Source: an uncultured Tateyamaria sp. (GTDB lineage: Bacteria; Pseudomonadota; Alphaproteobacteria; Rhodobacterales; Rhodobacteraceae). Taken from it: DNA of 64,000 nt. The notes under the pieces were generated by a model, which ran no database searches, had not been told where the DNA came from, and saw only the letters and a program-made list of their open reading frames with translations. A program made the position numbers and the translations under genes. Location of the stretch: positions 434,001-498,000 of the forward strand of contig NZ_CANNCF010000001.1 of NCBI RefSeq assembly GCF_947503045.1. Reading direction: 5' to 3'. Positions 42,247 through 58,972 of this stretch are shown in pieces. How positions within the stretch are numbered: position 1 is the stretch's first letter; every line of letters starts with the position of its first letter.

Positions 42247-43445
42247 ATGACCTTATCCGGAAAGTAGACAAAGAAGCTTGTTGAGAATCTTGCGCCGGGT
42301 CGGCACGGGGATGGGAACGGGTTGTACCTTGTTGTCGATCCGTCCGGGGCGCGGCGGTGGATCGTACGGGTGGTTGTGAAGGGGCAGACGAACCGCAAGG
42401 GCGGGCCACTTCGGACGGATTTCGGGCTGGGGGGTGCAGATGTCGTGCCTTTGCCGCAAGCGCGGGAGCGGGCTATAGCTTACCGACGCATGGCCAAGCA
42501 GGGGCTCAATCCGCGATTCAATGCGCAAAGGGAAGTGCCTACGTTCGGAGACGTGGCGCGCCAGGTGCATATTGAGCTGTTGCCGGCATGGAGGAATGCC
42601 AAACACGGCCTACAATGGCTCAACACCTTGTGCGACTATGCGTTCCCAAAGATCGGACGCATGCCCATCGACAGCATCGGCCAGCCGGAAGTCATGATGT
42701 GCCTCATTCCGGTCTGGTCCGAGAAGCATGAGACCGCCAAGCGTCTGGCACAGCGGATCAAGACCGTACTCGACGTGGCCCGATCCATAGGTCTGCGGTC
42801 GGGCGAGAACCCCGTCACGGCGATTAAGGAGGCGGGAGCGCTGCCCAAGGTCAAAACTCGGCCGGTCCATCACAAGGCGATGCAGTGGCAAGACGTGCCG
42901 GAGTTTTATGCAGCCCTGAGCACGAAGACTGCCATGGCTGCGAAGGCGCTGATGTTCACCTGCCTGACCGGTGCACGTACCGGCGAGGTGCTTCGCATGC
43001 GCTGGGCTGAGATTGATTGGGAGGCGGGCGTTTGGACCTGTCCACCCGATCGTATGAAGGCGGGTGAAGTGCACAGGGTGCCGCTTACCGAAACGATAAT
43101 CGGCATCCTGGAGCCTCTGCGCGCCCTGGAGTCTGTTTTATCTTCGAAGGAAAGAAACGCCACCAGCCGCTGTCGAACATGTCGATGCTGATGCTCCTGC
43201 GTCGCATGAAAGTTGAGGGTGTCACGGTGCATGGTTTCCGCTCAACTTTTCGCGACTGGGCAGCGGAAGAGGCCGGTGCGTCCCGCGAAATGGCTGAGAT
43301 GTCGCTCGCCCACAAGGTCGGCTCTGATGTCGAGCGGGCCTAAGCACGATCGGATTTGTTGGACCGTAGGCGCACTTTGATGGAGGCGTGGTCGGAATTT
43401 GTGACAAGCGATGGGCGAGCAGGGGGTGTTTGGTGTTTACTCTAG
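42247..43445 (+). pseudogene. degraded tRNA-type tyrosine integrase
   Basis: This is a P4-type (DUF4102/Int) tyrosine recombinase next to tRNA-Arg. Reading in frame from ATG 42247 gives MTLSGK, then a TAG at 42265, then TKKLVENLAPGRHGDGNGLY. The catalytic Arg region TGARTGEVLRMRWAEID is intact. A one-base loss near 43135 then shifts the frame; the correct continuation is IFEGKKRHQPLS, and the HGFRSTFRDWAAE motif lies in the second frame. The reading then meets TAA at 43341 where AYARSDLLDRRR would contain the Tyr. Three lesions make it inactive. Confidence 0.9.
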
Positions 43446-44323
43446 AAGGCTACACTCCGCTCTCAAGTCTTTGGGGTATGTTTGAGGAACGGTATCTCAA
43501 GTGGTGCTGCGCTCGTGCCTGCGAGTTGTATACTGCGGAACACTTCAGTCGTGATGATCACTTCGGGTCACCGCGGGACCTCTGTGAAGACATGTTTCTA
43601 GCATCACTTTCGGAGTTGCGCCTCGCGCTTTGCACAACCAAAGGATCTGTCCTGGAAATTGACGCAAGTTTGTCCGGAACAAACGCGAAGCTTCTCCAGA
43701 AGACGGCTGTGATGGAAAGCTTTCACATTGCTATGTTCGAGGATGAGGCTGGCCCTCAAAACGAATGGCTCATTCGCATGGGATCGCCGCAATTTCGGGA
43801 GGCAGGTCATACCGATGGCGAGGTCAAACAGTGGATCGTCGAATATGCCTTGCTTGTTGAACTAGAGGCCGATTTTCACGCCGTGAACATTCCGTTTCAC
43901 ACATTACCTTATCTATTTGAACGGCAATCCTACGTGATCGCCCGCAACTTTCCACCTTGGTCAAAAGACATGTGGGATGATCACTATGAGCGTAATTTGC
44001 CAGAGCATTATCGGGGTGCATCCATTTGCTTGAAGGAGGTATTGGCACAGCACTGGCAGGACAGTCTGAGCGAAACGGCACTACGCAAGGGTCTTGGGCG
44101 TCTGATCCCTAGTGTGATTTTGGAAGACAGTTCGCATTCCCTTCGGAAGAGCGGCAGGCTGGCGAAAGTTCCGGAAGCTAAGCAACTCATTCAATCCTTC
44201 GAAATCGAACTCGAAGATCTGACCGCGAAAGAAAAATTGAAATTTTTGCAAGAACGGCACGGCCTCAAAATTGGCCTGACTACTTTGCGAGCTGCTTATC
44301 GCAAACTGCGCGACGGCAAATGA
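43433..44323 (+). CDS. hypothetical protein of mobile-element type
   Basis: This protein of about 296 residues is unrecognised. I prefer GTG 43433, which has a GGGGG stretch upstream, over the track GTG that lies inside the integrase relic. It has no signal or membrane segment. The C-terminal 40 residues (KLKFLQERHGLKIGLTTLRAAYRKLRDGK) look like a small helix-turn-helix, so DNA binding is possible. Lower GC than its core-genome neighbours fits transfer. Confidence 0.6.
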   Translation: MFTLEGYTPLSSLWGMFEERYLKWCCARACELYTAEHFSRDDHFGSPRDLCEDMFLASLSELRLALCTTKGSVLEIDASLSGTNAKLLQKTAVMESFHIAMFEDEAGPQNEWLIRMGSPQFREAGHTDGEVKQWIVEYALLVELEADFHAVNIPFHTLPYLFERQSYVIARNFPPWSKDMWDDHYERNLPEHYRGASICLKEVLAQHWQDSLSETALRKGLGRLIPSVILEDSSHSLRKSGRLAKVPEAKQLIQSFEIELEDLTAKEKLKFLQERHGLKIGLTTLRAAYRKLRDGK

Positions 44324-44330
44324 GTACGAA

Positions 44331-44347
44331 ACAGTTTTCAAAACTGT
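44331..44347. promoter_or_regulatory. perfect 17-bp palindrome
   Basis: ACAGTTTT-C-AAAACTGT begins eight bases after the stop of the preceding gene. With no T run after it, it is more like a dimer operator than a terminator. Confidence 0.5.
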
Positions 44348-44361
44348 ATTGAGCGCGTTGC

Positions 44362-44413
44362 GTCGAAAACCGCATCGAAAGTCATCGTAAAGCCCGTCGT
44401 AAACCCATCGTAA
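44362..44413 (+). repeat. five phased TCGWAAA repeats
   Basis: TCGAAAA, TCGAAAG, TCGTAAA, TCGTAAA and TCGTAAA begin at 44362, 44374, 44384, 44396 and 44407, 10-12 bp apart, i.e. about one per helical turn. They lie upstream of the AlpA-like gene and may be binding sites for it or for the recombinase. Confidence 0.6.
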
Positions 44414-44507
44414 AGCTCGAAGCGGTTTGCGAAGTTTATGCACTCTGCAAAACCTTGGCATCCCACGACATCCTCCATGGCCAAAGACTAACCAAGGAGA
44501 ACACTTG

Positions 44508-44711
44508 ATGCCTGATATCTTTGAAAACAACCGGAACTACGCCCTAGGGGATCCCGAACTTGAGATCCTTGGCAACCGCCAAAAGCTTGCGCGGTGGCGT
44601 CACGCGAACATGGGTCCCGCATACTACAAACTCGGGCGCAAAGTCATTTACCGTGGTTCTGATCTTAACGCCTGGGCCACAAAGCATCGTAAAGACGCGA
44701 GCGCTTTTTAG
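44508..44711 (+). CDS. AlpA/excisionase-like HTH protein
   Basis: The 67-residue protein starts at ATG 44508 with AAGGAG upstream. The segment LGNRQKLARWRHANMGPAYYKLGRKVIYRGSDLNAW has the pattern of MerR-like HTH_17/AlpA proteins: a recognition helix, then a wing with K-x-G-R-x-V-x-Y, then D-L-x-x-W. Such proteins act as recombination directionality factors or activators of integrase genes. It lies between the phased repeat array and the recombinase gene. Confidence 0.75.
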   Translation: MPDIFENNRNYALGDPELEILGNRQKLARWRHANMGPAYYKLGRKVIYRGSDLNAWATKHRKDASAF

Positions 44712-44798
44712 GCCCGGCTGCTCAGCAGTATTCACCCAAAATTGTAAACTGGCTTACGTACCTCGGTAAGATCGCCGGGGCGGGGAGGGTGCAGAGAC

Positions 44799-46355
44799 AT
44801 GACCCGTTCCTACAAGGGCATTCGCGCAAAGAAACACTGGGTCTATTCCGTGGAAGACCTCATGCTCTCCTATGGTGTGACTCGGAACACAATCAGCAAT
44901 TGGGTCAACGAAGGTCTGATGCCCTCGAATAGTCGTAGGCCGTATGTGTTTCGCGGGGCCGCAGTCCAAGATTTTCTCCAAAGACGACTAGAGCGAAGAC
45001 AAGTAAAGCTCAGTCTATGTGAATTCTACTGCTTCACTTGCAAAGTGCCTGTGACACCGATCAAATTTGACCGTGAACCGTTAGCAACAAAATCCGGCGC
45101 GCAGGTTCTGCAAGCAACGTGCCCGAGGTGTAAAAGGACGGTCACCAAGTTCGGGAATCTGGAAGAACTGGACGTCCATAGGTTAATGGGCGCTACAAAT
45201 ACCAACGGGGACCAAACGGACGAAGGAGTAATTCAGGCGTCCGGTGATATTTGGATTTGGCACAACAGAAATGATCGCATAGTTCACAAATGGCAGATCA
45301 GTGCGGGCCGTTTCGCTGATGCGACCGTTGATGCCCACCTGCGCGCCATTCGTTTTCTAGAGGATGTTCTCCAAGGGAAATCCTTCACCTCATTGAGTAC
45401 AGTGGACATCGACAGAGTGCGATCCGAGTTGAAATTACAACTCTCTGGTGCTCGCGACGCACCCAAATCGCGCTCGAGTGTCAGTCACACCTCATCCCAC
45501 ATTCGCAAGTTTCTAGTATGGCTTTTGAAGCAAGACTTTGCCTCTGACCTTCCCAAGGATCTGCCAGACTACATCGAGTTGCCCAAGGCTGTGTACGCCC
45601 AGTGTCTGCCGCGACCCCAAAAGGAATATCCTCTCATAGAGGAGGCCGAAGCCATGCTCGAACGCATGCCGTCCCAGACCCTTCCCCGGAAGCGGGATCG
45701 CGCGATGTTCGCGATCGCTTTTCTTGGCGCGTTGAGGGCAGACACGCTCGTCTCGCTGCGGCTGAAACACCTAAGTGTCGCTGAAAAAATGATCATTCAG
45801 GATGGTACTGTCTCTCGTACGAAAAACGGCAAAAGTCTGGAGATATGGTGGTTCCCAATTTCTGAAGCTTTTTCTGCTGAAGTAACCAAGTGGGAAGCAC
45901 TTATACGCGACCTTGGCTTCCATGACGACGATCCGCTGTTCCCGGATCTAAAGTACCTCCTGAATGGCTACCCCAAGCGATACCCAAACGCGCCACCGAT
46001 CGAGCCGATGAAGACAAAGACGGCCGTAAACAAAACCTTCGCGATAGCCAGCAGCGGTGCCAAAGCGCATTACACGCCACACTCTGCAAAGCACACGATG
46101 GCAGCAGAAAGGGACCGTCGACACCTCACCGCGCGTGAACGCAAAGCGTGGCTAGAAAACATAGGACATGACACAGAACAGATCACTGACCGTCATTACG
46201 GCCAACTCTCAGGAGACGAGCGGAGACGTGCGTTGAAAAATATCGGCGATGGCTCAGAGCAACTATCGGTGCTCGAAAGACTGACCAATGATGAGTTGGG
46301 CGCCGGATTGCGAGAGTTTCTGATGCGCCACGTTGTAGAGATAAACAACGAATAG
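44799..46355 (+). CDS. HTH-zinc ribbon-tyrosine recombinase fusion
   Basis: The 518-residue protein begins with an HTH_17-like domain (12-60: YSVEDLMLSYGVTRNTISNW). A zinc ribbon follows, with CFTC (78-81) and CPRC (108-111). The rest is a phage-integrase core-binding domain and a catalytic domain: Arg 313 in ALRADTL, a Lys near 345, HSAK at 428-431 where HxxR is usual, His 457 in IGHDTE and the presumed Tyr 467 in RHYGQL. The frame is intact. GGGGAGGG precedes the start. It is the only apparently complete tyrosine integrase of the island besides the IS91-linked one. Confidence 0.8.
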   Translation: MTRSYKGIRAKKHWVYSVEDLMLSYGVTRNTISNWVNEGLMPSNSRRPYVFRGAAVQDFLQRRLERRQVKLSLCEFYCFTCKVPVTPIKFDREPLATKSGAQVLQATCPRCKRTVTKFGNLEELDVHRLMGATNTNGDQTDEGVIQASGDIWIWHNRNDRIVHKWQISAGRFADATVDAHLRAIRFLEDVLQGKSFTSLSTVDIDRVRSELKLQLSGARDAPKSRSSVSHTSSHIRKFLVWLLKQDFASDLPKDLPDYIELPKAVYAQCLPRPQKEYPLIEEAEAMLERMPSQTLPRKRDRAMFAIAFLGALRADTLVSLRLKHLSVAEKMIIQDGTVSRTKNGKSLEIWWFPISEAFSAEVTKWEALIRDLGFHDDDPLFPDLKYLLNGYPKRYPNAPPIEPMKTKTAVNKTFAIASSGAKAHYTPHSAKHTMAAERDRRHLTARERKAWLENIGHDTEQITDRHYGQLSGDERRRALKNIGDGSEQLSVLERLTNDELGAGLREFLMRHVVEINNE

Positions 46356-46375
46356 TGGTTGAGTTGGGCGTGTTT

Positions 46376-47587
46376 TGTTGAAAAACTCTTCCTTGATTGG
46401 TGCATGAACTGCTAATTCAATTCCCCCAACAAACCGGAGGATCAGCGATGATGGGACCGAGGCGGGAAGCACAGACGGCGCTGTTTTACGAGTTCTCGTT
46501 GGAGGATCACATCCCTCAAGATCACCTACTGAGGTCGATTGATCGGTTTGTCGATCTAAGCAGCATCCGCGCCCATCTTGCAGATTTCTACAGCCATACA
46601 GGCCGCCCATCGATCGATCCGGAATTGCTGATCCGGATGCTGCTGGTTGGCTATTGCTTTGGTATCCGCTCTGAACGACGGCTGTGAGAAGAGGCCCATT
46701 TGAACCTCGCATATCGCTGGTTTTGTCGTCTCGATCTGAATGATCGGATCCCGGACCACTCCACATTCTCAAAGAACAGGCACGGTCGTTTCCGGGACAG
46801 CGAACTACTCCGCCATCCGTTCGAGACAACCGTGGCGCGCTGCATCGCGGAAGGTCTCGTAAGTGGTCAACGCATGGCCGTTGATGCCAGCTTGATCGAG
46901 GCGGATGCGAACAGGCAGTTCTCAGCCTCCAAAGAAGAATGGGACATCAATCGCATTGATGTCGCTGCCGCGCCACGTGCTGTGCGCGAGTATCTCGACA
47001 CATTGGATGAGGCAGCGTTTGGTGCCGCCAGTGAGGTGCAACCAAAGTTCACCTCGTTCTCGGATCCCGCCAGCCAGTGGACCGCTGCGCGCAAAGGCCC
47101 TGCGTTCTTTAGCTATTCTGACAACTACCTGATCGACACGGATCACGGTGTCGTCGTCGACGTGGAAGCGACGCGGTCAATCCGGCAGGCTGAGGTGGGA
47201 TCAACCAAGACCATGTTGGACCGGGATAAAGATAAGTTCGATCTAGATCCAGAACGTCTGATCGCGGACACCGCCTATGGCTCTGGCCAGATACCAACAG
47301 ACGGATTCTCCCAAAAGCTGGAGGGAAATCGGGTCTCAGGTCACTGCGAAAGAAGGTGGAAATGCTCTTCGCGCACCTCAAGCGCATACTCGGGCTCGGG
47401 AGGTTACGACTACGTGGCCCATGCGGCGCAAATGACGAATTCCTCCTCGCCGCCACCGCCCAGAACCTCCGCAAACTGGCGAAGATCTTTCCTGCGCCGC
47501 AGCAACCGCGCAAAGCCTGATCAGAAAGGCGCCCGCGCACCGTTCAGTTGCCCACTTTCTGCGCTCGCAACACGTTGTTTTTCAACA
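46376..47587 (+). mobile_element. IS1182-family element, defective
   Basis: The ends carry a perfect 11-bp inverted repeat: TGTTGAAAAAC at 46376-46386 and GTTTTTCAACA at 47577-47587. The element is about 1.2 kb, shorter than intact family members because the transposase has lost its middle part. Confidence 0.75.
46448..47519 (+). pseudogene. IS1182-family transposase, nonsense codon and internal deletion
   Basis: The N-terminal half (FYEFSLEDHIPQDHLLRSIDRFVDL, RPSIDPELLIRMLLVGYCFGIRSERRL) runs into a TGA at 46685 where the family has Cys, and continues in the same frame (LNLAYRWFCRLDLNDRIPDHSTFSKNR). The first catalytic Asp (AVDASLIEADAN) and the second region (LIADTAYGSGQ) are present. About 100 residues are then missing, and the end (RKKVEMLFAHLKRILGLGRLRLRG, LAATAQNLRKLAKIF) is in another frame. 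It is inactive. Confidence 0.85.
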
Positions 47588-47729
47588 GAATGGGCGGGAG
47601 GACGAAGCCGCTATCGCGGCAATGGCGCTTGTGGTTGAGGTTTTGAGCCGCCTCTTACGGTGCGCGTTTTGTGATTTTGCTGACCTGTCTGACGATTGAG
47701 GTTTCTCAATCTGATGACAGGAGGCTCCC

Positions 47730-48617
47730 ATGAAGGAGGAGAAGACCACCCCGCTGCGCGCGCGGATGATCGAATATATGCGTATTCGTGGAATGTCCCC
47801 GAAGACCCAGCAGGCCCATATCAGAGCAGTCAGGTACTTTGCCGAGTTTATAGGGCGCTCACCTGATACTGCCACGCCGGACGAGTTGCGCGCATATCAG
47901 CTTCACATCACAGATACCGGGGTCTCGACGGGCGTGTTCAATGCCAGGATCGTGTCGCTACGGTTCTTCTTTGGCATGACCTGTGGGCGCGAAGAGATGA
48001 AGCGTTACATGCAGTTCGGACGCAAGGCGAAGAAGTTGCCCGTTGTCTTGAGCGTCGAGGAGGTCGGCGATCTTCTGGCGGCGGTTCCGGGACCGGGCTT
48101 GAAATATCGCGCAGCCTTGGGGATCAGCTATGGCGCTGGTTTGCGCGCATCTGAGGTCTGCAATCTCAAGGTCTCGGATATCGACAGCGACTGGATGCTG
48201 ATCCATGTCGACGAAGGCAAGAATGACAAGGACCGCAAGGCCATGTTGTCGCCCGCTTTGCTCGATCTGCCGCGCGACTATTGGCGCGAGGCACGGCCCG
48301 AGGGATGGCTGTTTCCGGGCAAACCCAAGATCATGGCCCTGTCCCCGCGCCAACTGAACCGCGCGTTCACGTCTGCCAAGCATATGGCAGGCATCAACAA
48401 ACCCGCGACCCTGCACACCCTTCGGCACAGCTTTGCGACCCATCTTCTCGAGGCTGGTACGGATGTTCGGGTGATCCAGGTGCTTCTCGGTCATTCAATG
48501 CTCTGCACGACAGCGCGCTATACGCATGTCGCGACCAAGACCATTCGTGGCACCGTCAGCCCCTGCGAGATGTTGGAGACGCTGCAGGATCATACTGTCA
48601 GACGGGGATTGGAGTAG
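47730..48617 (+). CDS. IS91-associated tyrosine recombinase
   Basis: The 295-residue XerD-like recombinase has a SAM-like N-terminal domain (ARMIEYMRIRGMSPKTQQAHI) and a catalytic domain with Arg in GAGLRASEVCNL, HTLRHSFATHLLE, LGHSMLCTTARYTHV (His and Tyr nucleophile). All catalytic residues are present. It ends 12 bp before the HUH transposase; this pair occurs in a subgroup of IS91 elements. Confidence 0.85.
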   Translation: MKEEKTTPLRARMIEYMRIRGMSPKTQQAHIRAVRYFAEFIGRSPDTATPDELRAYQLHITDTGVSTGVFNARIVSLRFFFGMTCGREEMKRYMQFGRKAKKLPVVLSVEEVGDLLAAVPGPGLKYRAALGISYGAGLRASEVCNLKVSDIDSDWMLIHVDEGKNDKDRKAMLSPALLDLPRDYWREARPEGWLFPGKPKIMALSPRQLNRAFTSAKHMAGINKPATLHTLRHSFATHLLEAGTDVRVIQVLLGHSMLCTTARYTHVATKTIRGTVSPCEMLETLQDHTVRRGLE

Positions 48618-48629
48618 CGGCTCGGGCGG

Positions 48630-49829
48630 TTGCCGCGCCCAAAGCTGGAGATTGCAGATATCTTTCGGAAGTATGGCCCAGCATATCGCCGGGCCAATGC
48701 AGGTCATGTCAGTCTCGGCCAACTGAAGGTGATGTCGGCGATTGAAGCCTGCCGAACCGAGGCGCTCGGCGGGCATGTAGCGGGATGTGCCAAATGCGGC
48801 CACCATCACATCGCGTACAACAGTTGCAAGAACCGCCATTGCCCCAAATGCCAGGGACCTGCCGCACGTGACTGGATGGAGGCACGCACCGAGGACCTGC
48901 TACCGGTCGAGTACTTCCACGTCGTCTTCACAATGCCCGCAGAGATCGCTCGCATTGCGTATTGGAACCCAAAGGCGGTCTATGGCCTGTTGTTCAGCGC
49001 ATCAGCGCAAACCGTGATGACCATCGCCGCCGACCCCAAGCGGTTCGGTGCAAAGGTCGGCATGACCAGTGTGCTTCATACTTGGGGATCCGCGCTGACG
49101 CACCATCCCCACATCCACATGATCGTGCCGGGCGGCGGCCTGTCACCCGACGGCACGAGGTGGGTAGCCTGTAGACCGGGGTTCTTCCTGCATGTGCGCG
49201 TTTTGGCGCGACTGTTCAGACGTCTGTTCCTGGAAGGGTTGATAGAGTTGCATCGAGCGGGAGCTCTTATGTTCTTTGGTGACAACGCAGGACTGGCGGA
49301 TGCCGTTGCCTTCACCAAATGGCTCGCCCCGTTACGCAAAACCGACTGGGTCGTCTATGCCAAGCCTCCGTTTGGCGGGCCAGAGGCGGTGCTGGCACAT
49401 CTGAGCCGCTATACCCACCGGGTCGCGATCTCGAACCATCGGTTGATCAACGCCGATGCCGATACCGTAGCTTTCCGCTGGAAGGTTTACCGGATCAAAC
49501 GTGGTGACCGCCAAAAGGTCATGCGCTTGGCCACACCCGAGTTCATCCGCCGTTTCCTGATCCACGTTCTGCCTGACGGATTCCACCGTATCCGCCACTT
49601 TGGCTTGTTGGCCAGTTCGGCACGCAAATCAAACATCACGAAGATCGGAGCTTTGCTCGGCGATCAACGCACCGACCAAAACGATGAACCAGAGCCGGCG
49701 CCCGAGATCGCCCCTCATACTTTACGCGAGCCATGCCCATGTTGCGGTGGCGATATGCGCATCATCGAGATCTTCCGCCGTGGCCAGAAACCAATGTCAC
49801 GCGCGCCACCACAGGAGCACGCCGCATGA
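48630..49829 (+). CDS. IS91-family HUH transposase
   Basis: This 399-residue rolling-circle transposase has an N-terminal zinc-binding region (CAKCGHHHIAYNSCKNRHCPKC), the HUH motif in HHPHIHMIVPGGG and a Tyr-containing segment HLSRYTHRVAISNHRL. The start is a TTG at 48630 or another non-ATG codon nearby. A C-terminal CPCCGG pair ends the protein. It looks intact. Confidence 0.88.
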   Translation: MPRPKLEIADIFRKYGPAYRRANAGHVSLGQLKVMSAIEACRTEALGGHVAGCAKCGHHHIAYNSCKNRHCPKCQGPAARDWMEARTEDLLPVEYFHVVFTMPAEIARIAYWNPKAVYGLLFSASAQTVMTIAADPKRFGAKVGMTSVLHTWGSALTHHPHIHMIVPGGGLSPDGTRWVACRPGFFLHVRVLARLFRRLFLEGLIELHRAGALMFFGDNAGLADAVAFTKWLAPLRKTDWVVYAKPPFGGPEAVLAHLSRYTHRVAISNHRLINADADTVAFRWKVYRIKRGDRQKVMRLATPEFIRRFLIHVLPDGFHRIRHFGLLASSARKSNITKIGALLGDQRTDQNDEPEPAPEIAPHTLREPCPCCGGDMRIIEIFRRGQKPMSRAPPQEHAA

Positions 49830-50243
49830 TCAGATGCGTCACCACTCACCTCGATACGCTCCGATCGTCTTCGGATGATCTGTCCAAACCGCTTGTGGCA
49901 ATCATCCGAATTGGTGGTCTCTATCGCATCGTCAGCACTCGATCTACGCAATACTCACAATCAAGCTGGCGAAAAACGAATGCGGCAAGCGCTTCAAGCA
50001 CAGTCGACCGCGCGCTCGTGGCTAAGTCAGTCTCAACCGCCAGCGCTCTTTCCCCATAGACAGATCCCAGATCCCCGCAGCTTCCTCCTTCCGAGGTTTG
50101 TCAACGCGGGCCGCCCGCCTCGCGAGTAGGAAATATTGCACCTCGGCCCGCATCGAAAAATCTTCAGGGAAGCGGAAGTTCGCTGCGACAGCGGCGGAAG
50201 CTTCCTGGCTTTCAAAAAGCGGGCATTCAGTTGTGGCGATTGG
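49830..50243 (+). other. non-coding 3' end of IS91-type element and flank
   Basis: This is a 414-bp gene-free stretch: the likely terminus of the IS91-type element up to about 50130, then a flank that holds AAGCGGAAGTTCGCTGC (50170-50186), a motif repeated at 60151. I see no gene. Confidence 0.45.
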
Positions 50244-50708
50244 TCAAACCAAGACCGCTGCCCGAGATTGAACCATCGCAGCAATCGCCGTTTGTACTTC
50301 GGCACTGAGTTCCGTTTGCTGTTCTCCTGCGTCGATTTCGACGATTAGCGAAAACCTGATTTCTGGCAGCCTGTCTTGAAGGAGATTCTTTGACTTCCAC
50401 CAGCCGGTGACTGAGTGGACAGCAATCAAGTTTAGGCGCGCTAAGTCAGACGCCTTGCACGTAATCTGATCGATATGTGGTGATCCCACATCGCGTCGGT
50501 CGCTTTCGAAAAGCCAAAGATCTTCCTCCACACTTAATGGCCCAACGGGAGGTTCGGCAACTTTGCTGACATTGGCCATGAAACGGTCAGCTTGTTCGTC
50601 TGCGCGATTTACCTTGAACCGCAGATTGTGAGACGCGTAGCGGTACCGGGACCCACGCGATGTCTCCGACGGGTTGGGAGCGACAAAGGTGCTTAGTGCC
50701 GCGCGCAT
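50244..50708 (-). CDS. hypothetical protein, possibly remnant
   Basis: This frame of about 155 residues (start set at the inner Met, MRAALSTFVAPNPSETS) has no recognised domain. Composition is protein-like (LRFKVNRADEQADRFM, IRFSLIVEIDAGEQQTELS) rather than the low-complexity pattern of antisense shadows, and nothing better is on the other strand. Wedged between two insertion elements, it may be the tail of an interrupted gene. Confidence 0.4.
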   Translation of the reverse strand: MRAALSTFVAPNPSETSRGSRYRYASHNLRFKVNRADEQADRFMANVSKVAEPPVGPLSVEEDLWLFESDRRDVGSPHIDQITCKASDLARLNLIAVHSVTGWWKSKNLLQDRLPEIRFSLIVEIDAGEQQTELSAEVQTAIAAMVQSRAAVLV

Positions 50709-50808
50709 TGTCACTTCGGCGCTCCCCAGCGCCCGCAAAAGCGGCAACCGGCCACGGCAAGGTGAAGAGTTTCATCTCGTTGTGAACATCGCTTCCGGTC
50801 TTCTCAGA

Positions 50809-51616
50809 GGCATTGCCAACTTGCCGTCGCTTTCGGTGGAGCTTAGGCGGCCTTCATGAACATACCAACTGGGATGCACGCCTGAAAGGTTACGGGTTCC
50901 CACGTGAAGTCGTTGCCTACGCCGTGTGGGCCTACCACCGGTTCGCGCTGAGCACAGTGGATGTAGAGGATCTGCTCGCCGTGCGAGGCGTTGTCGTCAG
51001 CCGGGGAACCGTTCGCGAATGGGTGAACCGGTTTGGTCGGCATTTCGCAGATTGCATCAAGCGCGACCGGCCCGCTGCAGCAGATAAGTGGCACCTCGAT
51101 GAAGTTGTCGTGCCAATCAACGGGGCGAAGATGTGGTTGTGGCGGGCCGTGGATGGGAACGGGGATGCGCTCGACATTCTGGTTCAGCCAAGGCGAAACG
51201 CCAAAGCGGCCAGGCGCTTCTTGCGGCAACTGTTCGCCCGTTTTGGCCGGCCCCGCGTTATCATAACGGACAAATTGCGAAGCTATATCAAACCGATCCG
51301 TCAGCTGGTGCCAGAAGCCGGCCACCGCGCGCACAAAGGGATCAATAACCGGATCGCGGGGCCGCACCGACCTACGCGGAAGCGAGAGAAACTCATGGGC
51401 CTATTCAAATCGCCCTGGCAGGCACAGAGATTTTTGGCTGCCCATGATCAAATCAACACCGTCTTTCGACCCCGTCGCTACCAACTCTCCACAATCTCGT
51501 ATCGCCACGCCAGGGCCGACGCTTTCGGCCTCTGGAAAGACTATGCTGCCGAAATGACCGCTTGAACGGCAAAGACCCCAATCCCCTCAATCAGGCGAAA
51601 ACAAGTTGGAAATCCC
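50809..51616 (+). mobile_element. IS6-family element
   Basis: GGCATTGCCAACTTG at 50809-50823 and CAAGTTGGAAATCCC at 51602-51616 form 15-bp terminal inverted repeats with 13 matches. The 808-bp length is typical for IS6. The flanks (TTCTCAGA left, TACGATAC right) are not the 8-bp target duplication expected of a simple insertion. Confidence 0.8.
50813..51565 (+). CDS. IS6-family transposase with altered DDE site
   Basis: This is a 250-residue frame; the true start is probably downstream, near the segment RLKGYGFPREVVAYAVWAYHRF. The first Asp (KWHLDEVVVPI) and second Asp (VIITDKLRSY) are present. In the family the third acidic residue lies in NNRAENSHQPTR; here that stretch reads NNRIAGPHRPTR, so the Glu is missing. 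The protein is otherwise full length (MGLFKSPWQAQRFL), but it is probably inactive. Confidence 0.85.
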   Translation: MPTCRRFRWSLGGLHEHTNWDARLKGYGFPREVVAYAVWAYHRFALSTVDVEDLLAVRGVVVSRGTVREWVNRFGRHFADCIKRDRPAAADKWHLDEVVVPINGAKMWLWRAVDGNGDALDILVQPRRNAKAARRFLRQLFARFGRPRVIITDKLRSYIKPIRQLVPEAGHRAHKGINNRIAGPHRPTRKREKLMGLFKSPWQAQRFLAAHDQINTVFRPRRYQLSTISYRHARADAFGLWKDYAAEMTA

Positions 51617-51775: not shown

Positions 51776-53377
51776 TCACTTCGCTTTTGGCGCATTATCT
51801 GAATTGAAAAGGTCATTGGCTGTGTGCCAATCGAATAGTTTCACGAGTTTGTCGCGCTGTTCGATGGGTTGGGTATTCTCGCGATTTATGGCCTTGCGCT
51901 TGTCTTCGGGGATCAGGCTGACGATCCCGGCGGCGATGGCGACCGAGGCGGATGTCCCCGCAAAGCGGGTAAAAAGTGACCCGATTTCATAGTATTGATC
52001 GTTATCGTATTGATCGTTTTCGTCCTCCTCCGGATACTGATAGGGGGATGGATTGTACCCTGCTTGACGGGGTAGGTCCGTCGTGACGATATCGCGGGCA
52101 GGGAATTCCCTGCCTGTCAATCTCGGTGGGTCCAAATCCTTGTCAATCGCGGCCCATGGGTCGATCTTGCGCTCCCCGTCCTCGCGGTCAAAACGAGGCA
52201 ATTCCGTGCTCAGCGTTTTGATCATCCAGCCATGGTGACCGATGACGGTGGTCTGCGTGGGTGAATAACTCAGGTCTTCGCCCTTGTCGTCGCAAGCCCC
52301 CACGGCCCAAGGGCCATGCGGGTCGGTGCATGCCGATGCGGGGTAAACCGGGTGGGACAAATCCTCATTTCCGGCGGCGCAAAGCACGATAGTTTCCTGG
52401 CACAGATCCATGAAGTCTTCATGCAGACGATCCCACAACTTGTTTTCCTCTTCCTGCATTTGTTGCGCGTCCTTGGACAGCGGTTTCGCACGATCACGCG
52501 GTCGATCCCACGAATCCGCGATCACCACGATATCCGGTTCGACCAATTTCGCGTATTCCACGGCGGATCGTAGCATCGAAGCGCTCGGGGCGGCGGAAAT
52601 GGAGATCGGGACAATTCGGCAAAACGGATTGATCCCGCAATAGGGAAGCGGCAGCCAATCGGCAGAGGAAAGAACAACATCGTCTATGATTTCGCCGTTT
52701 TCGTGTTTCAAGCCGCGCAGAAATGCAGGCTCACGAAAACAGATGCTGGTGGGCCGCGCTCCGATCAGCCCGGCGACGGCCGTTCCATGGGCGCCGAACA
52801 CGCGAAAGGGTCGTTCTGAACTATGCCCGTGCTCGATCTCGGCAACGATGGCCTTGGCAAGGTCGGTGTTTTGCTTGCTCGCCTTGTCCCCCAGCCACGC
52901 GCGGGATTTGACATCCGCGTCTAGAAAATACTTGTCGCCCTTGTTTTCGTTACCGTCCTTGAAACGCAGAAACTCCCCATGTGCGGTATGACTGAAATCG
53001 CGCATCAACCCGGTATCCATGGCCCCGCATAAATTCGGGTGCTTATAGTCGACAGGCGTGTCGATCAACGCGATGCGCGCCGGGCGAGGCGGAACCGGAA
53101 CCTGCGTGTCCGTGTCGCCCTTGTCTTTACGCTGCGAAACCGCCTTTTTGCCGGTGTTCTTGTTGCCCATCGCGACGCTAGCGGCACCTTCCCAGGGCTC
53201 GCCTCCATATTCCGACAATTTGTCGACGATTTGCAGCACGTGAAGGTGCCACAGTGCGTGGAAGGCCGGGCGAAACCCCGTTCCCAGCGGGTGGCAGTAA
53301 CGTTCATCGTCCTGCTTGGGCTTCTGATAAGAGGGATGCGGATGACGTCCATGGGGGTGTTTTTGACTATGTGCCAT
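51776..53377 (-). CDS. S8 subtilisin-like protease without signal peptide
   Basis: The 533-residue protein begins MAHSQKHPHGRHPHP after GGGAGAAAAAAG. The triad is readable: Asp 106 in ALIDTPVD, His 197 in FGAHGTAVAG, Ser 476 in AGTSASVA, with the oxyanion Asn 337 in CAAGNED. Unusual parts are a His-rich N-terminus, a long insert between Asp and His, and an acidic/Tyr stretch (about 449-464) just before the Ser. There is no signal peptide, so it acts inside the cell or leaves by a non-Sec route. It lies 11 bp after the haloperoxidase-like gene, in one operon with it. Confidence 0.88.
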   Translation of the reverse strand: MAHSQKHPHGRHPHPSYQKPKQDDERYCHPLGTGFRPAFHALWHLHVLQIVDKLSEYGGEPWEGAASVAMGNKNTGKKAVSQRKDKGDTDTQVPVPPRPARIALIDTPVDYKHPNLCGAMDTGLMRDFSHTAHGEFLRFKDGNENKGDKYFLDADVKSRAWLGDKASKQNTDLAKAIVAEIEHGHSSERPFRVFGAHGTAVAGLIGARPTSICFREPAFLRGLKHENGEIIDDVVLSSADWLPLPYCGINPFCRIVPISISAAPSASMLRSAVEYAKLVEPDIVVIADSWDRPRDRAKPLSKDAQQMQEEENKLWDRLHEDFMDLCQETIVLCAAGNEDLSHPVYPASACTDPHGPWAVGACDDKGEDLSYSPTQTTVIGHHGWMIKTLSTELPRFDREDGERKIDPWAAIDKDLDPPRLTGREFPARDIVTTDLPRQAGYNPSPYQYPEEDENDQYDNDQYYEIGSLFTRFAGTSASVAIAAGIVSLIPEDKRKAINRENTQPIEQRDKLVKLFDWHTANDLFNSDNAPKAK

Positions 53378-53388
53378 CTTTTTTCTCC

Positions 53389-54408
53389 CTATTGCAGCCA
53401 TTCCGCGCGGACGAGGCGGATTTGATCTTGCAGAATATCTTCGAACATCGGGGCACACAGGCGCGCCAGTGTTTCGCCGCCCTCGGTGTCCGATACGATG
53501 TGCAACCCGGCCCATTCCCGGTTCTTCGCCACCTCGGCTGCAGCACGGAACAGGGCAGCCCCGCCCGGATGCTCGGGGGCCGCGCGCGCAAACACTTCGG
53601 CGATCAGAAAGGACTGGAACGCGTGGTTGGACGGATAGGACGAATAGGCGGGCACCGGGATGAACGGTTCCAGCGTGGGATCCAACACGTGGGGGCGCGG
53701 CGCGTTGAAACGTTCCTTGTAGATCAGCCCGATCAGGCTGCCCAACCACAGGATCGTCTGAAACATCACCGCCGTCGCACTGCCGGGCGTGGTGACATCC
53801 GCACCCAGCGGCAGCATATAGGCCGTCAAGTCGTTGCCCGCCTCACGCCGGATGCGTTCCCGGCGAAAGGCCTCTTCGGGTTCTCGCAGTTGTTTCTGGT
53901 AGTCGTGCAGGGGCTCTATCTCAGCCAGCCTGTCGCGCACAGGCAGAGGCGCGGGCATTTCGTGCAACTCGAACCTGTCCCACCGATAACTGTCGCGGCG
54001 ATCATATAGCCGGTGCAACTCCCGCCACGGGACCTCGATCGTGGGCCAATCCAGCTCGGGTCCGCCGCCATATCCGCTGGACATTCCCGCAGCCGCCTGA
54101 AGGCCCTTGTGCAAGCCTTTGTGCAGAGATTTGTGGAGGCTCTTGTGCAGGGATTTGTGCAGCGCCTTGTGCAGCGCCTTGTGCAGCAGCCCACTAGTAT
54201 ACCCGGCCACGGCACTTTGGGCAAATCTGAATGCTTCGTCAGCATCGTCCTGGGCGGTCAATTCCACCATGATCCGGTCATTGTTGATTTTCAGAAATGC
54301 GGACTTGAGAATGTTTTTGACGTCATCCAGTGTTTGCTGCGGCCCGCTATGGTCAGGACGGTCGTTTTCGTAGCATTTCGTCGGGTCCGTTTTTTTGTCT
54401 TTTGGCAT
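53389..54408 (-). CDS. PAP2 / vanadium-haloperoxidase-like protein with LHKx repeats
   Basis: The 339-residue protein has the three-part phosphate/vanadate pocket of the PAP2 superfamily: K231-x6-R238-P239 (KERFNAPRP), PSNH (259-262) and R297-x5-H303-x3-D307 (NREWAGLHIVSD). Its size and the single soluble domain resemble vanadium haloperoxidase-type members more than small membrane phosphatases; I cannot decide between peroxidase and phosphatase activity. Residues 75-102 are seven tandem LHKx tetrapeptides. No signal peptide. It precedes the subtilase in a minus-strand unit. Confidence 0.82.
   Translation of the reverse strand: MPKDKKTDPTKCYENDRPDHSGPQQTLDDVKNILKSAFLKINNDRIMVELTAQDDADEAFRFAQSAVAGYTSGLLHKALHKALHKSLHKSLHKSLHKGLHKGLQAAAGMSSGYGGGPELDWPTIEVPWRELHRLYDRRDSYRWDRFELHEMPAPLPVRDRLAEIEPLHDYQKQLREPEEAFRRERIRREAGNDLTAYMLPLGADVTTPGSATAVMFQTILWLGSLIGLIYKERFNAPRPHVLDPTLEPFIPVPAYSSYPSNHAFQSFLIAEVFARAAPEHPGGAALFRAAAEVAKNREWAGLHIVSDTEGGETLARLCAPMFEDILQDQIRLVRAEWLQ
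54103..54186 (-). repeat. seven 12-bp repeats encoding LHKx
   Basis: The repeats LHKA, LHKA, LHKS, LHKS, LHKS, LHKG, LHKG lie in the haloperoxidase-like gene. At DNA level units such as CTTGTGCAGCGC recur with few changes, so slippage could change the copy number without a frameshift. Confidence 0.9.
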
Positions 54409-54433: not shown

Positions 54434-56128
54434 TTAAATCAGTCCGTTTTGTTCAAAACTGCGCACCAGTCGTCGGCTTAGATCTATGGGCGTGCGCTGA
54501 ACCATGCGGTCGGTCCATTCCGCCAAGTCGTAATCCGGGCGCAATTGCCGAATCCGCGCCCGCAGGCGGCGCGCATCCCCCGTATTTCCGGCCAGGGCGG
54601 ATCCGGCCATGGCATAGCGCAAGGCGCCGATGAACCGCGGTTTACGAAACAGCGCGCGATTGGCAAAGGACAGGGCCAGTTTGTAATCGCCCTTGGCCAT
54701 GAAAATCATCGCACCGGTTACGTCATAGGTATATCGCCACGGGCTGTGCGCGCCGTTCTTCTGGCACCGCCAGAACGCGGATTCCGCCTGCGCGAAATCG
54801 CCCTGCATCATGCGAATGACGGCCAGATGATCCAAGTTCAAAGATAATCCCGGTGCGGAGCTATGGGCGCTCTCCAACAGCATGTCCGCCAAGTCGTTTT
54901 GCCCCAGCAGCATATGGGCCGAATAACCCGCAACACTGTGCCAAAGCGGCAGTAACGGGCTGGATGCCGATATCTCCGACAGCAATTGGCACAATCGCTC
55001 GCTGGACATTGGGCGGACCGCCTCGACACCTTCATTCTGCTTGAAGACTTGGGCAAACAGCAAAAGGCACTCCAGTTCCGCCGGGGCGCCGTTCTGGATC
55101 ATGTGATCTATCTGCGTTTCCACCGTAGAGATCATTTGCGGATCCAGTGAGAACAGCCCGGCAATTGCCGTCCAAGGAAACAGGTTCGGAGACTCATCTG
55201 GCAAGGAAACAGTGGCCAGATTGCGCAGGATTATTTCAGCCGTCATTGCGGCCAATTCCTCCGGTTCAAGATCGCTGGCGTTCACCGGATCGGAAATCCA
55301 AAGAATGCGCTGGTTCACCGCTTCTGTCAGGCGAAACCGCATCATGAGATTGCCATCCCGCCGCTCGGCCACGGCTTGCAACAGATGGCTGGGGCCATTG
55401 CCGTTCCGGATGGGCAATGGCACCACGGGAACGTCCCTGTCGCGCAGGTCATGAAGGGACAGAAAGGTGGTCAGCGACACAACGCGGATCGTGGCATCAA
55501 CGATCCCGTCGGCCTCATTGATGCAGGATTCCGAGAGGTTCGCCTGCAGCAGGGGCAGCACCCCAAGCTCAATCCGTTGTGCATTCCGTGCCGGTGACGA
55601 GGCATTCCAATGGGTCTTGGAGACCGGCGGCGCGTCCGGCTGAACGTCGGCTGCGCGGCTGTCGCGCAGCCATTCTTCAAACCCGTCGCAGCCGGGCAAA
55701 GATAAATCCACCCCTTCTAGAAACATCCCGTCCGCAGCGCCGGGGTCCTGGACTTTCAGACGCTCCGGGCACAGCGCTACCCGGCTTCGATTGGAGGTCA
55801 GAACTCCCTCTCCCAAAACCGCAAGATCCTGTTTCAACAGATACAATGCCGTGCGCAAATTGGCCGACGCCTTGGCGGGCGTTTCGCAGGACCAGAACAT
55901 GTCCAGCAAACTGCGTCTGGCTTTGCACAATTCGGGTGCCGAAAGAAGAACGGCAAGGATGGCAATTCTAAGCGGACTGGTGGGGGTGATGTCCGTGCCA
56001 TCGGACAGGTGCAATCGAAATGGCCCATGCAAACGGGCAAACGCACATGGCCTGGGGATGAACGGATCATCGGCGACCGAATTACCGGAGTGTAGCTGTC
56101 CGTCATTCATCACGTTTACACGCCCCAT
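54434..56128 (-). CDS. SARP-like regulator: wHTH, TolB-like and TPR domains
   Basis: This is a protein of about 564 residues; the start is uncertain (Met at 56128 or 56110, or a GTG at 56233). An OmpR/SARP-type winged helix comes first (LHGPFRLHLSDGTDITPTSPLRIAIL, then ASANLRTALYLLKQDL). A TolB-N-like domain follows (ELGVLPLLQANLSESC, ATIRVVSLTTF, then RRDGNLMMRFRLTEAVNQRILWI). The C-terminal half is TPR-like helices (YSAHMLLGQNDLADMLLESA, MAKGDYKLALSFANRALF). It probably controls the flanking protease genes; the two operons diverge around it. Confidence 0.78.
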   Translation of the reverse strand: MGRVNVMNDGQLHSGNSVADDPFIPRPCAFARLHGPFRLHLSDGTDITPTSPLRIAILAVLLSAPELCKARRSLLDMFWSCETPAKASANLRTALYLLKQDLAVLGEGVLTSNRSRVALCPERLKVQDPGAADGMFLEGVDLSLPGCDGFEEWLRDSRAADVQPDAPPVSKTHWNASSPARNAQRIELGVLPLLQANLSESCINEADGIVDATIRVVSLTTFLSLHDLRDRDVPVVPLPIRNGNGPSHLLQAVAERRDGNLMMRFRLTEAVNQRILWISDPVNASDLEPEELAAMTAEIILRNLATVSLPDESPNLFPWTAIAGLFSLDPQMISTVETQIDHMIQNGAPAELECLLLFAQVFKQNEGVEAVRPMSSERLCQLLSEISASSPLLPLWHSVAGYSAHMLLGQNDLADMLLESAHSSAPGLSLNLDHLAVIRMMQGDFAQAESAFWRCQKNGAHSPWRYTYDVTGAMIFMAKGDYKLALSFANRALFRKPRFIGALRYAMAGSALAGNTGDARRLRARIRQLRPDYDLAEWTDRMVQRTPIDLSRRLVRSFEQNGLI

Positions 56129-56242
56129 ACCTGCTTCAACGCTACCACCTGTACGTGAAACGACATAACAAAAATATTCACGCACCAATTCAAAAGGCAA
56201 TGACACGCCAGCGCCCGGGCAATTGATGCCCACGAAATGGCG

Positions 56243-56320: not shown

Positions 56321-57313
56321 ATGCCCGAAGCGATCGCATTCACTGCACAATTCAAGGGCGTACGGTGGCAAACAGCCCTTGGCATGGCGGCCTGCCTTTC
56401 CATCGCCACGGCCTTTCCGGCCATTGCCCAAGATCAGGACAATCCCCACAACCCGCTAAGTTCCGACGGCGTCAGCGTCGCCGAAATCATGGGCCCCTTC
56501 AACGCCGAACCCGGCAATGAAGGCGACCCGGGCAAGACCACAGGCACCCAGGGCGAATCCATCCCGACCGAATCTGCTGAAGACTTTTTCGACCTGCTGG
56601 AGCTGGAACCGGCGGTCGCGGACCCCATTGAAGACGAAATCGGAATCCGCAGCATCTTCAGACCCGACACGCGCAAGCGCAACAAGACAACCACCTACCC
56701 CGAGCGCACCAGCGTCCTTGTGACTTACAACAACAAGCGCTGTTCCGGCGCGATGATTTCCAAGGACACGGTGCTGACGGCAGGGCATTGCGTGCATGGT
56801 GGCGGTTCCGCGGGAAGTTGGTCGCAGAACGTGCGGGTCTATCCGGGGCGCGATGGGCCATCCTCCCCCTTTGGATCGTGCCGCGCCCGCAGCCTTCATT
56901 CCGTGACAGGCTGGGTGCGCAACCGCGATGAACGCTACGATTACGGCGCCATCAAGCTGGATTGTACCGTGGGCGAACGCACCGGATGGCTGGGCTTTTT
57001 CTGGCAAACGGCCAGCCTTGTGGGGCTGCCCACCATCATCGACGGCTATCCCGGTGACAAGAACCTGACCCAATGGCGCTCGACCGACCAACTGCGCGCG
57101 AACGACACCCGCCAGGTCTTTTACCGCAACGACACGGTTCCGGGAAACAGCGGCTCGGCCGTCTACACCACCGCCTCCAGCGTATGCCGGGGCCCCTGTG
57201 CCCTGGGGGTGCACAGCATGGGCGTCCACGGCGGCGGCGTTCACGCCAGCAACAACCACGGCGTGCGCATCACCAAGGCGGTGTTCGAGAATCTGAAGCG
57301 CTGGACCCAATAA
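56321..57313 (+). CDS. exported S1 (V8/trypsin-like) serine protease
   Basis: The 330-residue protein has a signal peptide (about 1-36, ending AIAQ), a long acidic pro-region (about 37-110) and a chymotrypsin-fold domain. The triad: His 156 in TAGHCVHG, Asp 207 in RYDYGAIKLD, Ser 277 in PGNSGSAVY. It resembles glutamyl endopeptidase/V8-like secreted proteases; several Cys suggest disulfides. GGAGGAAACA precedes the ATG. It is the first gene of a plus-strand unit of four. Confidence 0.9.
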   Translation: MPEAIAFTAQFKGVRWQTALGMAACLSIATAFPAIAQDQDNPHNPLSSDGVSVAEIMGPFNAEPGNEGDPGKTTGTQGESIPTESAEDFFDLLELEPAVADPIEDEIGIRSIFRPDTRKRNKTTTYPERTSVLVTYNNKRCSGAMISKDTVLTAGHCVHGGGSAGSWSQNVRVYPGRDGPSSPFGSCRARSLHSVTGWVRNRDERYDYGAIKLDCTVGERTGWLGFFWQTASLVGLPTIIDGYPGDKNLTQWRSTDQLRANDTRQVFYRNDTVPGNSGSAVYTTASSVCRGPCALGVHSMGVHGGGVHASNNHGVRITKAVFENLKRWTQ

Positions 57314-57380
57314 CCGGCCTCTCAGACCCATCCGGATGCCCCTGACGGGCCTCTGGCTAACTTTGACAAGGAGATTTGAA

Positions 57381-58688
57381 ATGACCAAGAAACCCAAAAA
57401 GAAACCCGCGCCGCAACCTGCTTGCATGTCCCTGTCGTCCTCGGTCGATGAACTTCTGGCGGATGCGCTGAAAACGGAACCCGGCGCGCAGAACACAGGC
57501 CGTACGGTTCTGACCTTCAAGGACGGTGCCAATGGCGACATGGCGGCGATGTTCCAGGCCTCCGGCGCCCGTGTGGCCGATGCGCGCGACTATGTGGATC
57601 AATCCGTAGATCTCTCGCAACTGAGCGATGCCGATGTTCTGATGCTGCCGGAAATCAACGTGGCCGTGATGACACCGCGCGCGGTCGAGGCCAGCGCCGT
57701 GGGCGAGATGTCCGCGCTGTCCAGTGACAGTCCCATAGCCAGCATTGACCCCGAACATTTCGTTCATGCCATCGACAAAAGTTCGGAATTCATGCGTGGC
57801 TTCCTGCAGGCGACGCGGGCCATCGCCGAAGGTCAGGCCCTGCTGGAATCGGAACCGGATTTGATGGTTGAGGCCGAGGCAAGCGGCGTCACCTGGGGTC
57901 TGGCAGCCTGCAAGGTCCCCGAAAGCAGCCGCAGCGGCGCGGGCATCAAGGTTGCCGTGCTCGATACCGGTCTGGATTTCGGACATCCCGATTTCGTCGG
58001 ACGCCGGATCACCGGAAAGTCCTTTGTGGGCGGCACGGAACAGGACGGCAACGGCCATGGCACCCACTGCATAGGCACCGCCTGCGGCCCGCAATCCCCC
58101 ACCGGCCCCGTGCCGCGCTACGGGATCGGCTATGGCGCCCAGATCTATGTGGGCAAGGTATTGGCCGACAATGGCTCCAGCGTGGGCACCAGTGTTCTGC
58201 TGGGCATGAACTGGGCCATCGCGAACCGGTGCGAGGTCATCTCCATGTCTCTGGGCGGGCGCACCTCAACCGTCTATCAGCCCTATGTGCGGGCCGGTCA
58301 AAGGGCGCTGGACAACGGGCTGCTAATGATCGCGGCGACGGGCAACCAAAGAAGCCTCACCGCCGCCCCCGCCAATTCGCCCACGATCATGGCGGTGGCC
58401 TCGCTGGATCCGAACCTCAAACGATCGAACTTCTCGAACTATGGCAAGGTGGAAATCGCGGCCCCGGGCCGGGACGTGCTGTCATCCGCTCCCCGCCCCG
58501 AGCTTTACCGCGAAGCGGCAGGTACCAGCATGGCCACCCCCCATGTGGCGGGCTGCGCCGCGCTCTGGGCACAGACCGATCCCCGCTTGCGCGGTAAGGC
58601 GCTTTGGGATCGGTTGCAACGCGCGGCCCGTCCGCTGAGCGAGCCGGCAAAATTCGTTGGCAGCGGCCTGGTTCAGGCGCCATCCTGA
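57381..58688 (+). CDS. S8 subtilisin-like protease
   Basis: The 435-residue protein starts at MTKKPKKKPAPQ with AAGGAGA upstream. Residues about 40-95 look like an I9-type propeptide (RTVLTFKDGANGDMAAMF, ending VLMLPEINVAVMTP). The peptidase domain has Asp 195 (AVLDTGLDF), His 226 (GNGHGTHCIG), Asn 322 (AATGNQ) and Ser 383 (AGTSMATPHVAG). No classical signal peptide precedes the propeptide. It is followed by a gene for a separate I9-like protein, whose upstream ATG overlaps its stop. Confidence 0.9.
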   Translation: MTKKPKKKPAPQPACMSLSSSVDELLADALKTEPGAQNTGRTVLTFKDGANGDMAAMFQASGARVADARDYVDQSVDLSQLSDADVLMLPEINVAVMTPRAVEASAVGEMSALSSDSPIASIDPEHFVHAIDKSSEFMRGFLQATRAIAEGQALLESEPDLMVEAEASGVTWGLAACKVPESSRSGAGIKVAVLDTGLDFGHPDFVGRRITGKSFVGGTEQDGNGHGTHCIGTACGPQSPTGPVPRYGIGYGAQIYVGKVLADNGSSVGTSVLLGMNWAIANRCEVISMSLGGRTSTVYQPYVRAGQRALDNGLLMIAATGNQRSLTAAPANSPTIMAVASLDPNLKRSNFSNYGKVEIAAPGRDVLSSAPRPELYREAAGTSMATPHVAGCAALWAQTDPRLRGKALWDRLQRAARPLSEPAKFVGSGLVQAPS

Positions 58689-58732
58689 TGCCAGCGGCAG
58701 TGATCCTGACCTCAACAGAAGGAAGTGAGCCC

Positions 58733-58972
58733 ATGGACGACACGCAAAGATGGATCGTAACAGTGGAGCCAAGCGCCGATCTCGCCGATCTAAGCCAGCG
58801 CCTGCAGTCCCAGGGCTGCGCCGTCGAACACGCCCTTGAAGAACTCGGGATGTTGGTGGGCGTTTGTAGCCAGACCATGGCCGACAGCATCGCTGCCCTT
58901 CCCGAGGTCAAGGACGTCTCGCCGGAGATCAGCACCAGCATCGACCCACCCGATCTGGACGACGCGCCCTAA
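58733..58972 (+). CDS. stand-alone I9-propeptide-like protein
   Basis: The 79-residue protein starts at MDDTQRWIVTVEPSADL (GGAAG site upstream; an earlier ATG at 58688 overlaps the subtilase stop). The pattern is that of subtilisin propeptides/I9 inhibitors: a first beta strand WIVTVEP, a helix LADLSQRLQSQG, a strand, a second helix SIAALPEV and a final strand KDVSPEIST, about 75 residues in all. As a free protein it could inhibit or help fold the neighbouring subtilase in trans. The assignment rests on pattern, not on catalytic residues. Confidence 0.65.
   Translation: MDDTQRWIVTVEPSADLADLSQRLQSQGCAVEHALEELGMLVGVCSQTMADSIAALPEVKDVSPEISTSIDPPDLDDAP

Follow-up and report, generated by a model that had tools for sequence, protein, structure and literature searches.

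Fungi, yeast, plants and apicomplexan parasites have already yielded propeptide mimics that regulate subtilases. Among them, stand-alone inhibitors of the I9 type occur in Pleurotus (POIA1), yeast (proteinase B inhibitor) and Arabidopsis (SPI-1), the Toxoplasma protein TgMIC5 is a further mimic, and Plasmodium SUB1-ProM, encoded beside subtilase genes, proved by experiment to be a potent and selective inhibitor, according to the sections of PMC6993865 that treat them. In Bacillus, the intracellular subtilisin Isp1 is served by a dedicated protein inhibitor, IPI (PMC3901451), and in IetS/IetR and the mycoplasma pairs a subtilase is coupled to an AAA-ATPase (PMC8562856). In the open-access literature, subscription papers aside, we came across no account of a subtilase from bacteria that has a free I9-like protein as its partner.

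The window analysed here, a stretch of 64,000 nucleotides, holds an open reading frame of 79 codons behind a subtilase gene. Sequence and modelling make it likely that the 79-residue product is a stand-alone I9-like propeptide mimic that binds the adjacent mature subtilase and blocks its active site. Like SUB1-ProM, it is a propeptide-like protein encoded next to a subtilase that has its own propeptide, and it carries an acidic residue at the predicted helix-capping position; SUB1-ProM, as described in that part of the literature, differs in being eukaryotic and in acting in the parasitophorous vacuole. With the stand-alone inhibitors of MEROPS family I9 and TgMIC5 it shares a small single-domain build that is not derived from a protease precursor, but these are all eukaryotic, and the sections that describe them note no conserved operon-like pairing with the target. 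The combination of a probably intracellular bacterial subtilisin and a dedicated protein inhibitor recalls Isp1 and IPI, although IPI is Ig-like in fold, no subtilisin gene lies close to its own, and the propeptide of Isp1 is short, at 18 residues (PMC3901451). As in IetS/IetR and the mycoplasma pairs, the subtilase is half of a two-gene module associated with mobile DNA, whereas the partner there is an AAA-ATPase and not a propeptide-like protein (PMC8562856). The cis I9 propeptides of BPN', subtilisin E and Tk-subtilisin have the fold and C-terminal register that are predicted for the 79-mer, but they are part of the protease precursor, are cleaved, and have no proline block at P1'.

The small gene lies at 58733-58972 on the forward strand, from an ATG at 58733 to a TAA ending at 58972, and its translation is MDDTQRWIVTVEPSADLADLSQRLQSQGCAVEHALEELGMLVGVCSQTMADSIAALPEVKDVSPEISTSIDPPDLDDAP. 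The initial annotation had placed a 79-residue product with no attached protease here, and the reading frame is indeed present as described. It starts 44 bp after the stop codon of the subtilase, on the same strand, and a likely ribosome-binding site, AAGGAAG (58719-58725, forward), stands 7 nt before its ATG. The GC content by codon position (0.68/0.43/0.77) resembles that of the subtilase (0.64/0.52/0.76). Searches with the 79-mer as a single query against Pfam, NCBIfam, PDB, plasmids and viral contigs returned nothing useful, and weak single-sequence matches in genomes (L004-L007) were unrelated, being an aldolase-like enzyme and coiled-coil proteins. In the four annotated plasmid copies of the gene, the RefSeq label is each time "hypothetical protein".

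The AlphaFold2 model of the 79-mer, built with eight homologues, has a mean pLDDT of 86 and a pTM of 0.65. Its predicted elements (E4-11, H17-26, E30-35, E40-46, H47-54, E59-64) follow the order strand-helix-strand-strand-helix-strand, which is the I9 topology. The I9 pattern that had been proposed from the letters thus stands, with one strand more than the strand-helix-strand-helix-strand given at the time, and the predicted fold is I9-like rather than one unrelated to the ferredoxin-like I9 fold; nor is the all-beta Ig-like fold of the IPI type seen in this alpha/beta model. In a Foldseek search of the PDB the leading matches were pro-subtilisin E, the BPN' prosegment, the Tk-subtilisin propeptide, the EpiP pro-domain and propeptides of fungal alkaline proteases. 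E-values against the propeptides ran from 1.1e-3 at best to about 1e-2, modest as expected for a domain of 79 residues, with TM-scores of 0.75-0.82 normalised to the free propeptides; other ferredoxin-like folds matched too. The 79-mer gave no match to Pfam Inhibitor_I9 (PF05922), the family named as a check in the initial annotation, and none of 27 members searched by sequence reached its curated cut-off, two of the 27 matching at E 0.075 at best. A profile of the 27 weakly retrieved the Tk-subtilisin propeptide chains in the PDB (E 0.038-0.14). Known stand-alone I9 members are likewise described as lacking significant sequence similarity in the relevant section of PMC6993865. We propose that the 79-mer works like a stand-alone I9 inhibitor while falling outside the formal Pfam family.

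The adjacent S8 subtilase (57381-58688, forward; Pfam Peptidase_S8, 3.7e-41) has 435 residues from the ATG at 57381, in a frame that opens at 57336, and its C-terminus comes soon after the catalytic domain. The catalytic Asp195 (57963-57965), His226 (58056-58058) and Ser383 in GTSMATPH (58527-58529), as well as Asn322 of the oxyanion hole (58344-58346), all on the forward strand, are invariant among 26 homologues, so that by sequence the enzyme is an intact S8A subtilisin with its Asp-His-Ser triad and oxyanion Asn kept. The mature form of one homologue, from the pair L012, resembles the Bacillus subtilisins (TM 0.86-0.90, with 36-40% identity in most top matches). N-terminal hydropathy gave no apparent signal peptide in the subtilase or in the 26 homologues checked, and this signal-less enzyme is probably cytoplasmic. 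A pro-like segment at about residues 40-95 had been pointed out before. It is present, but longer: alignments A6 and A12 together with the register statistics below place a putative I9-like cis pro-domain at 57486-57779 (forward), roughly residues 36-133 of the 435-residue form. This domain, which has no match in Pfam, ends in ...IDPEHFVHAI|DKS, with VHAI as predicted P4-P1 and Asp132 as P1'. We do not claim a common origin for the cis and trans domains because the hhalign match between them is weak (32.8%, E 4.6e-4, C-terminal half).

The gene pairing is the strongest evidence that the small protein is an inhibitor. In a first survey, 397 genomes of the same family were searched with the 79-mer and then with a three-member profile, and a similar small ORF was found behind a similar subtilase in unlinked genomes. 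The subtilase type, counted at E < 1e-100 or when split over two contigs (G022), is present in 11 of these 397 genomes; ten of the 11 Rhodobacteraceae that have it also carry the small gene, and in the eleventh, G035 (L160), a divergent I9-like ORF occupies the small gene's position. A cross-phylum scan used the subtilase alignment alone, with one genome per species, and returned 80 loci. Among the 20 most similar, which come from gamma-, beta- and alphaproteobacteria, Acidobacteria, Cyanobacteria, Chloroflexi, Actinobacteria and Bacteroidota, 18 have a homologue of the small gene directly 3', as detected with a profile built before these loci were known; the exceptions are L050, where a weak candidate stands at this position, and L044, where there is none. 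The 60 more distant subtilase loci have no homologue at E < 0.1. All five plasmid subtilase records, picked by subtilase similarity alone and outside the set from which profile A5 was built, have the small partner (E 1.8e-26 to 1.7e-12). Altogether a clear homologue sits beside 33 of the 36 nearest subtilase relatives, almost always directly 3'. Such recurrence behind orthologous subtilases in many phyla is, on these sequence comparisons, more than chance.

The two reading frames share an ATGA overlap in Rhodococcus (L038) and Arthrobacter (L040), an arrangement that suggests translational coupling. An apparently orphan small gene in G131 (L014) was rejected as such, since its subtilase gene is present some 2 kb further upstream in the same orientation, separated from it by a single gene. 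A single open frame joining protease and inhibitor in G022 (L143:1-680) was not used as evidence of a fusion because the assembly is fragmented and the two parts seem to be joined by a frameshift, and most matches to profiles A1 and A5 above E 1e-5 were discarded, lying inside long unrelated frames.

The initial annotation had left the target as one of two subtilases. A second, divergent copy does exist at about 51776-53161 on the reverse strand, some 5.5 kb from the 79-codon ORF, but the partner in every other genome is an orthologue of the adjacent enzyme; the conserved pairing points to the product of 57381-58688, and we regard the second subtilase as a most improbable target.

The propeptide of BPN' ends in a P1 tyrosine six residues past Asp71. 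In the part of PMC6993865 that deals with this complex, Glu69 and Asp71 of the propeptide cap two helices of the enzyme. Glu65 of the 79-mer (58925-58927, forward) falls at the position of Asp71, which is Glu or Asp in 21 of 27 members. We counted positions from this acid, so that +3, +5, +6 and +7 correspond to the would-be P4, P2, P1 and P1'. Among the trans small proteins, +3 is Val in 17/27, +5 Leu or Ile in 21/26, +6 Pro, Gly or Ala in 21/26, and +7 Pro in 21/26. The cis pro-domains of the partner subtilases have mostly Val or Met at +3, Ala at +5 in 18/24, and Pro at +7 in 3/24. The difference at +7 gives a Fisher value of 1.2e-6, a statistic that ignores relatedness. Because the register pattern differs in this way, the cis domain resembles a propeptide of the usual, cleavable sort and the trans protein one with a proline block at the scissile bond, which suggests an inhibitor tail that resists cleavage. 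The tail of the 79-mer itself, TSIDPPDLDDAP (58934-58969, forward), reads TSID at the predicted P4-P1 in the register set by Glu65, followed by Pro72 at P1' and Pro73 at P2'; with Thr at P4 and Asp at P1 it is poorer than the consensus. The PP tail is absent from L047, L051, L160 and the plasmid members L174, L177 and L178.

The fit of the two partners was modelled with a natural in-frame pair, L012, whose stop codon was read through and whose cis pro-domain was omitted. The resulting chain of 394 residues is a modelling device only, and it represents a relative rather than the pair of the window. Its alignment contained read-through pairs only, as MAFFT misplaced rows holding just the small protein, aligning them with the cis pro-domain or with the catalytic domain. 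The co-fold has a pTM of 0.87 and a mean pLDDT of 90, with the small domain mostly at 91-94 and the linker below 50. For a randomly placed small domain we estimate a pTM of about 0.74, and the co-fold therefore places the small domain with some confidence. At P5-P3 the tail adopts a strand that the model of the isolated 79-mer does not have, and the enzyme segment AGQ (104-106), equivalent to the S4 edge strand, is also assigned as strand. The tail register and this confident fit speak for the earlier suggestion of an inhibitor acting in trans.

The gene pairing, the predicted fold and the conserved tail are what the analysis shows; from them we infer a mechanism that covers binding, inhibition, resistance to cleavage and the role in the cell. 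The subtilase would fold with its own cis pro-domain and then be cut at the normal-looking VHAI|D. The 79-mer would subsequently take the same surface of the enzyme, laying its sheet on two surface helices with Glu65 as the cap and threading its C-terminal tail along subsites S4-S1 as a strand that mimics a substrate. Since the residue after the scissile position is proline in most members, we expect the tail to be hard to cleave and the inhibition to be lasting. The pair would then consist of a signal-less, probably cytoplasmic protease and an off-switch made together with it, and most likely the small partner keeps the subtilase switched off inside the cell.

The small protein might instead be a second pro-domain that has split off and serves mainly as a folding chaperone in trans, not as a lasting inhibitor. 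Assistance in folding is established for subtilisin propeptides, and the gene order and coupling would supply both products together. We consider this unlikely, as the subtilase keeps a conserved cis pro-domain of its own, so that a second chaperone is not obviously needed, and a proline-blocked tail fits an inhibitor better than a transient chaperone. It is less probable still that the protein has an unrelated function on a ferredoxin-like fold, such as binding a metal or ligand, and merely shares the operon. Profile A5 does match copper-chaperone folds weakly, but the same search repeatedly brings up Tk-subtilisin propeptides, propeptides of subtilisins head the list of structural matches, the tail fits the subsites for substrate, there is no CxxC metal motif, and the gene is paired almost exclusively with subtilases.

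A toxin-antitoxin or defence module, with a cell-damaging subtilase set free from an I9-like antitoxin under stress or infection, is a special case of the inhibitor explanation and compatible with it; we hold it possible, though doubtful. The pair is patchily distributed, occurring in 11 of the 397 genomes of the family but not in G241, the same-genus genome that was sampled; its surroundings include plasmids, with IS elements near the plasmid copies, the subtilase matches the candidate "subtilase" model of PADLOC (5.8e-22) and, weakly, IetS, and subtilase toxins with AAA-ATPase antitoxins have been reported (PMC8562856). However, no AAA-ATPase lies beside the pair in the window or recurs around its homologues, no defence genes recur beside the pair, nor does any other gene in the neighbourhoods examined, and patchiness fits any accessory gene equally well. 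The setting permits such a role rather than demonstrating it, and the "immunity-like" part of the initial annotation is speculative. As a tentative extension, the pair may be a widespread, horizontally spread bacterial module: an intracellular subtilisin whose own cis pro-domain is normal and cleavable would be kept inactive by a second pro-domain, made as a separate protein and resistant to cleavage, and the two would work as a toxin-antitoxin-like or phage-triggered protease switch.

If inhibition by the small protein is true, the bacterial pair, in Proteobacteria, Actinobacteria, Acidobacteria, Cyanobacteria, Chloroflexi and Bacteroidota, would mean that the control known from eukaryotic propeptide mimics was reached or kept far more widely. 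The reading would also give a name to a family now labelled "hypothetical protein" in databases, and the contrast between a cleavable cis tail and a proline-blocked trans tail on the same enzyme offers a simple, testable idea of what separates an inhibitor from a propeptide.

Small I9-like ORFs were also noticed beside more distant subtilase types, at L161:2448-2783 (forward), L160:1169-1417 (reverse) and L070:7030-7323 (reverse). Their tails differ and lack PP, and the L070 copy is encoded on the strand opposite its subtilase. Free-standing partners of the propeptide type may have originated on more than one occasion. A homologue of the small protein at L011:1345-1728 carries a hydrophobic stretch at its N-terminus that may be a signal or an anchor and that sets it apart from the other members.

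Within the window, a cluster of integrase- and transposase-like ORFs at 42300-51600, next to the region of the pair, suggests an island. The second subtilase, with a GTSAS motif and no I9-like partner noticed, adjoins a PAP2-like phosphatase; this PAP2-family protein (53389-54408, reverse) contains successive LHKALHK/LHKSLHK repeats close to its N-terminal third. A large TPR protein that weakly resembles AfsR/SARP regulators (54434-56233, reverse) is encoded in the direction leading away from the proteases. The gene immediately upstream of the subtilase, at 56321-57313 (forward), specifies a trypsin-like protease with an apparent signal peptide, so that two serine proteases stand in tandem.
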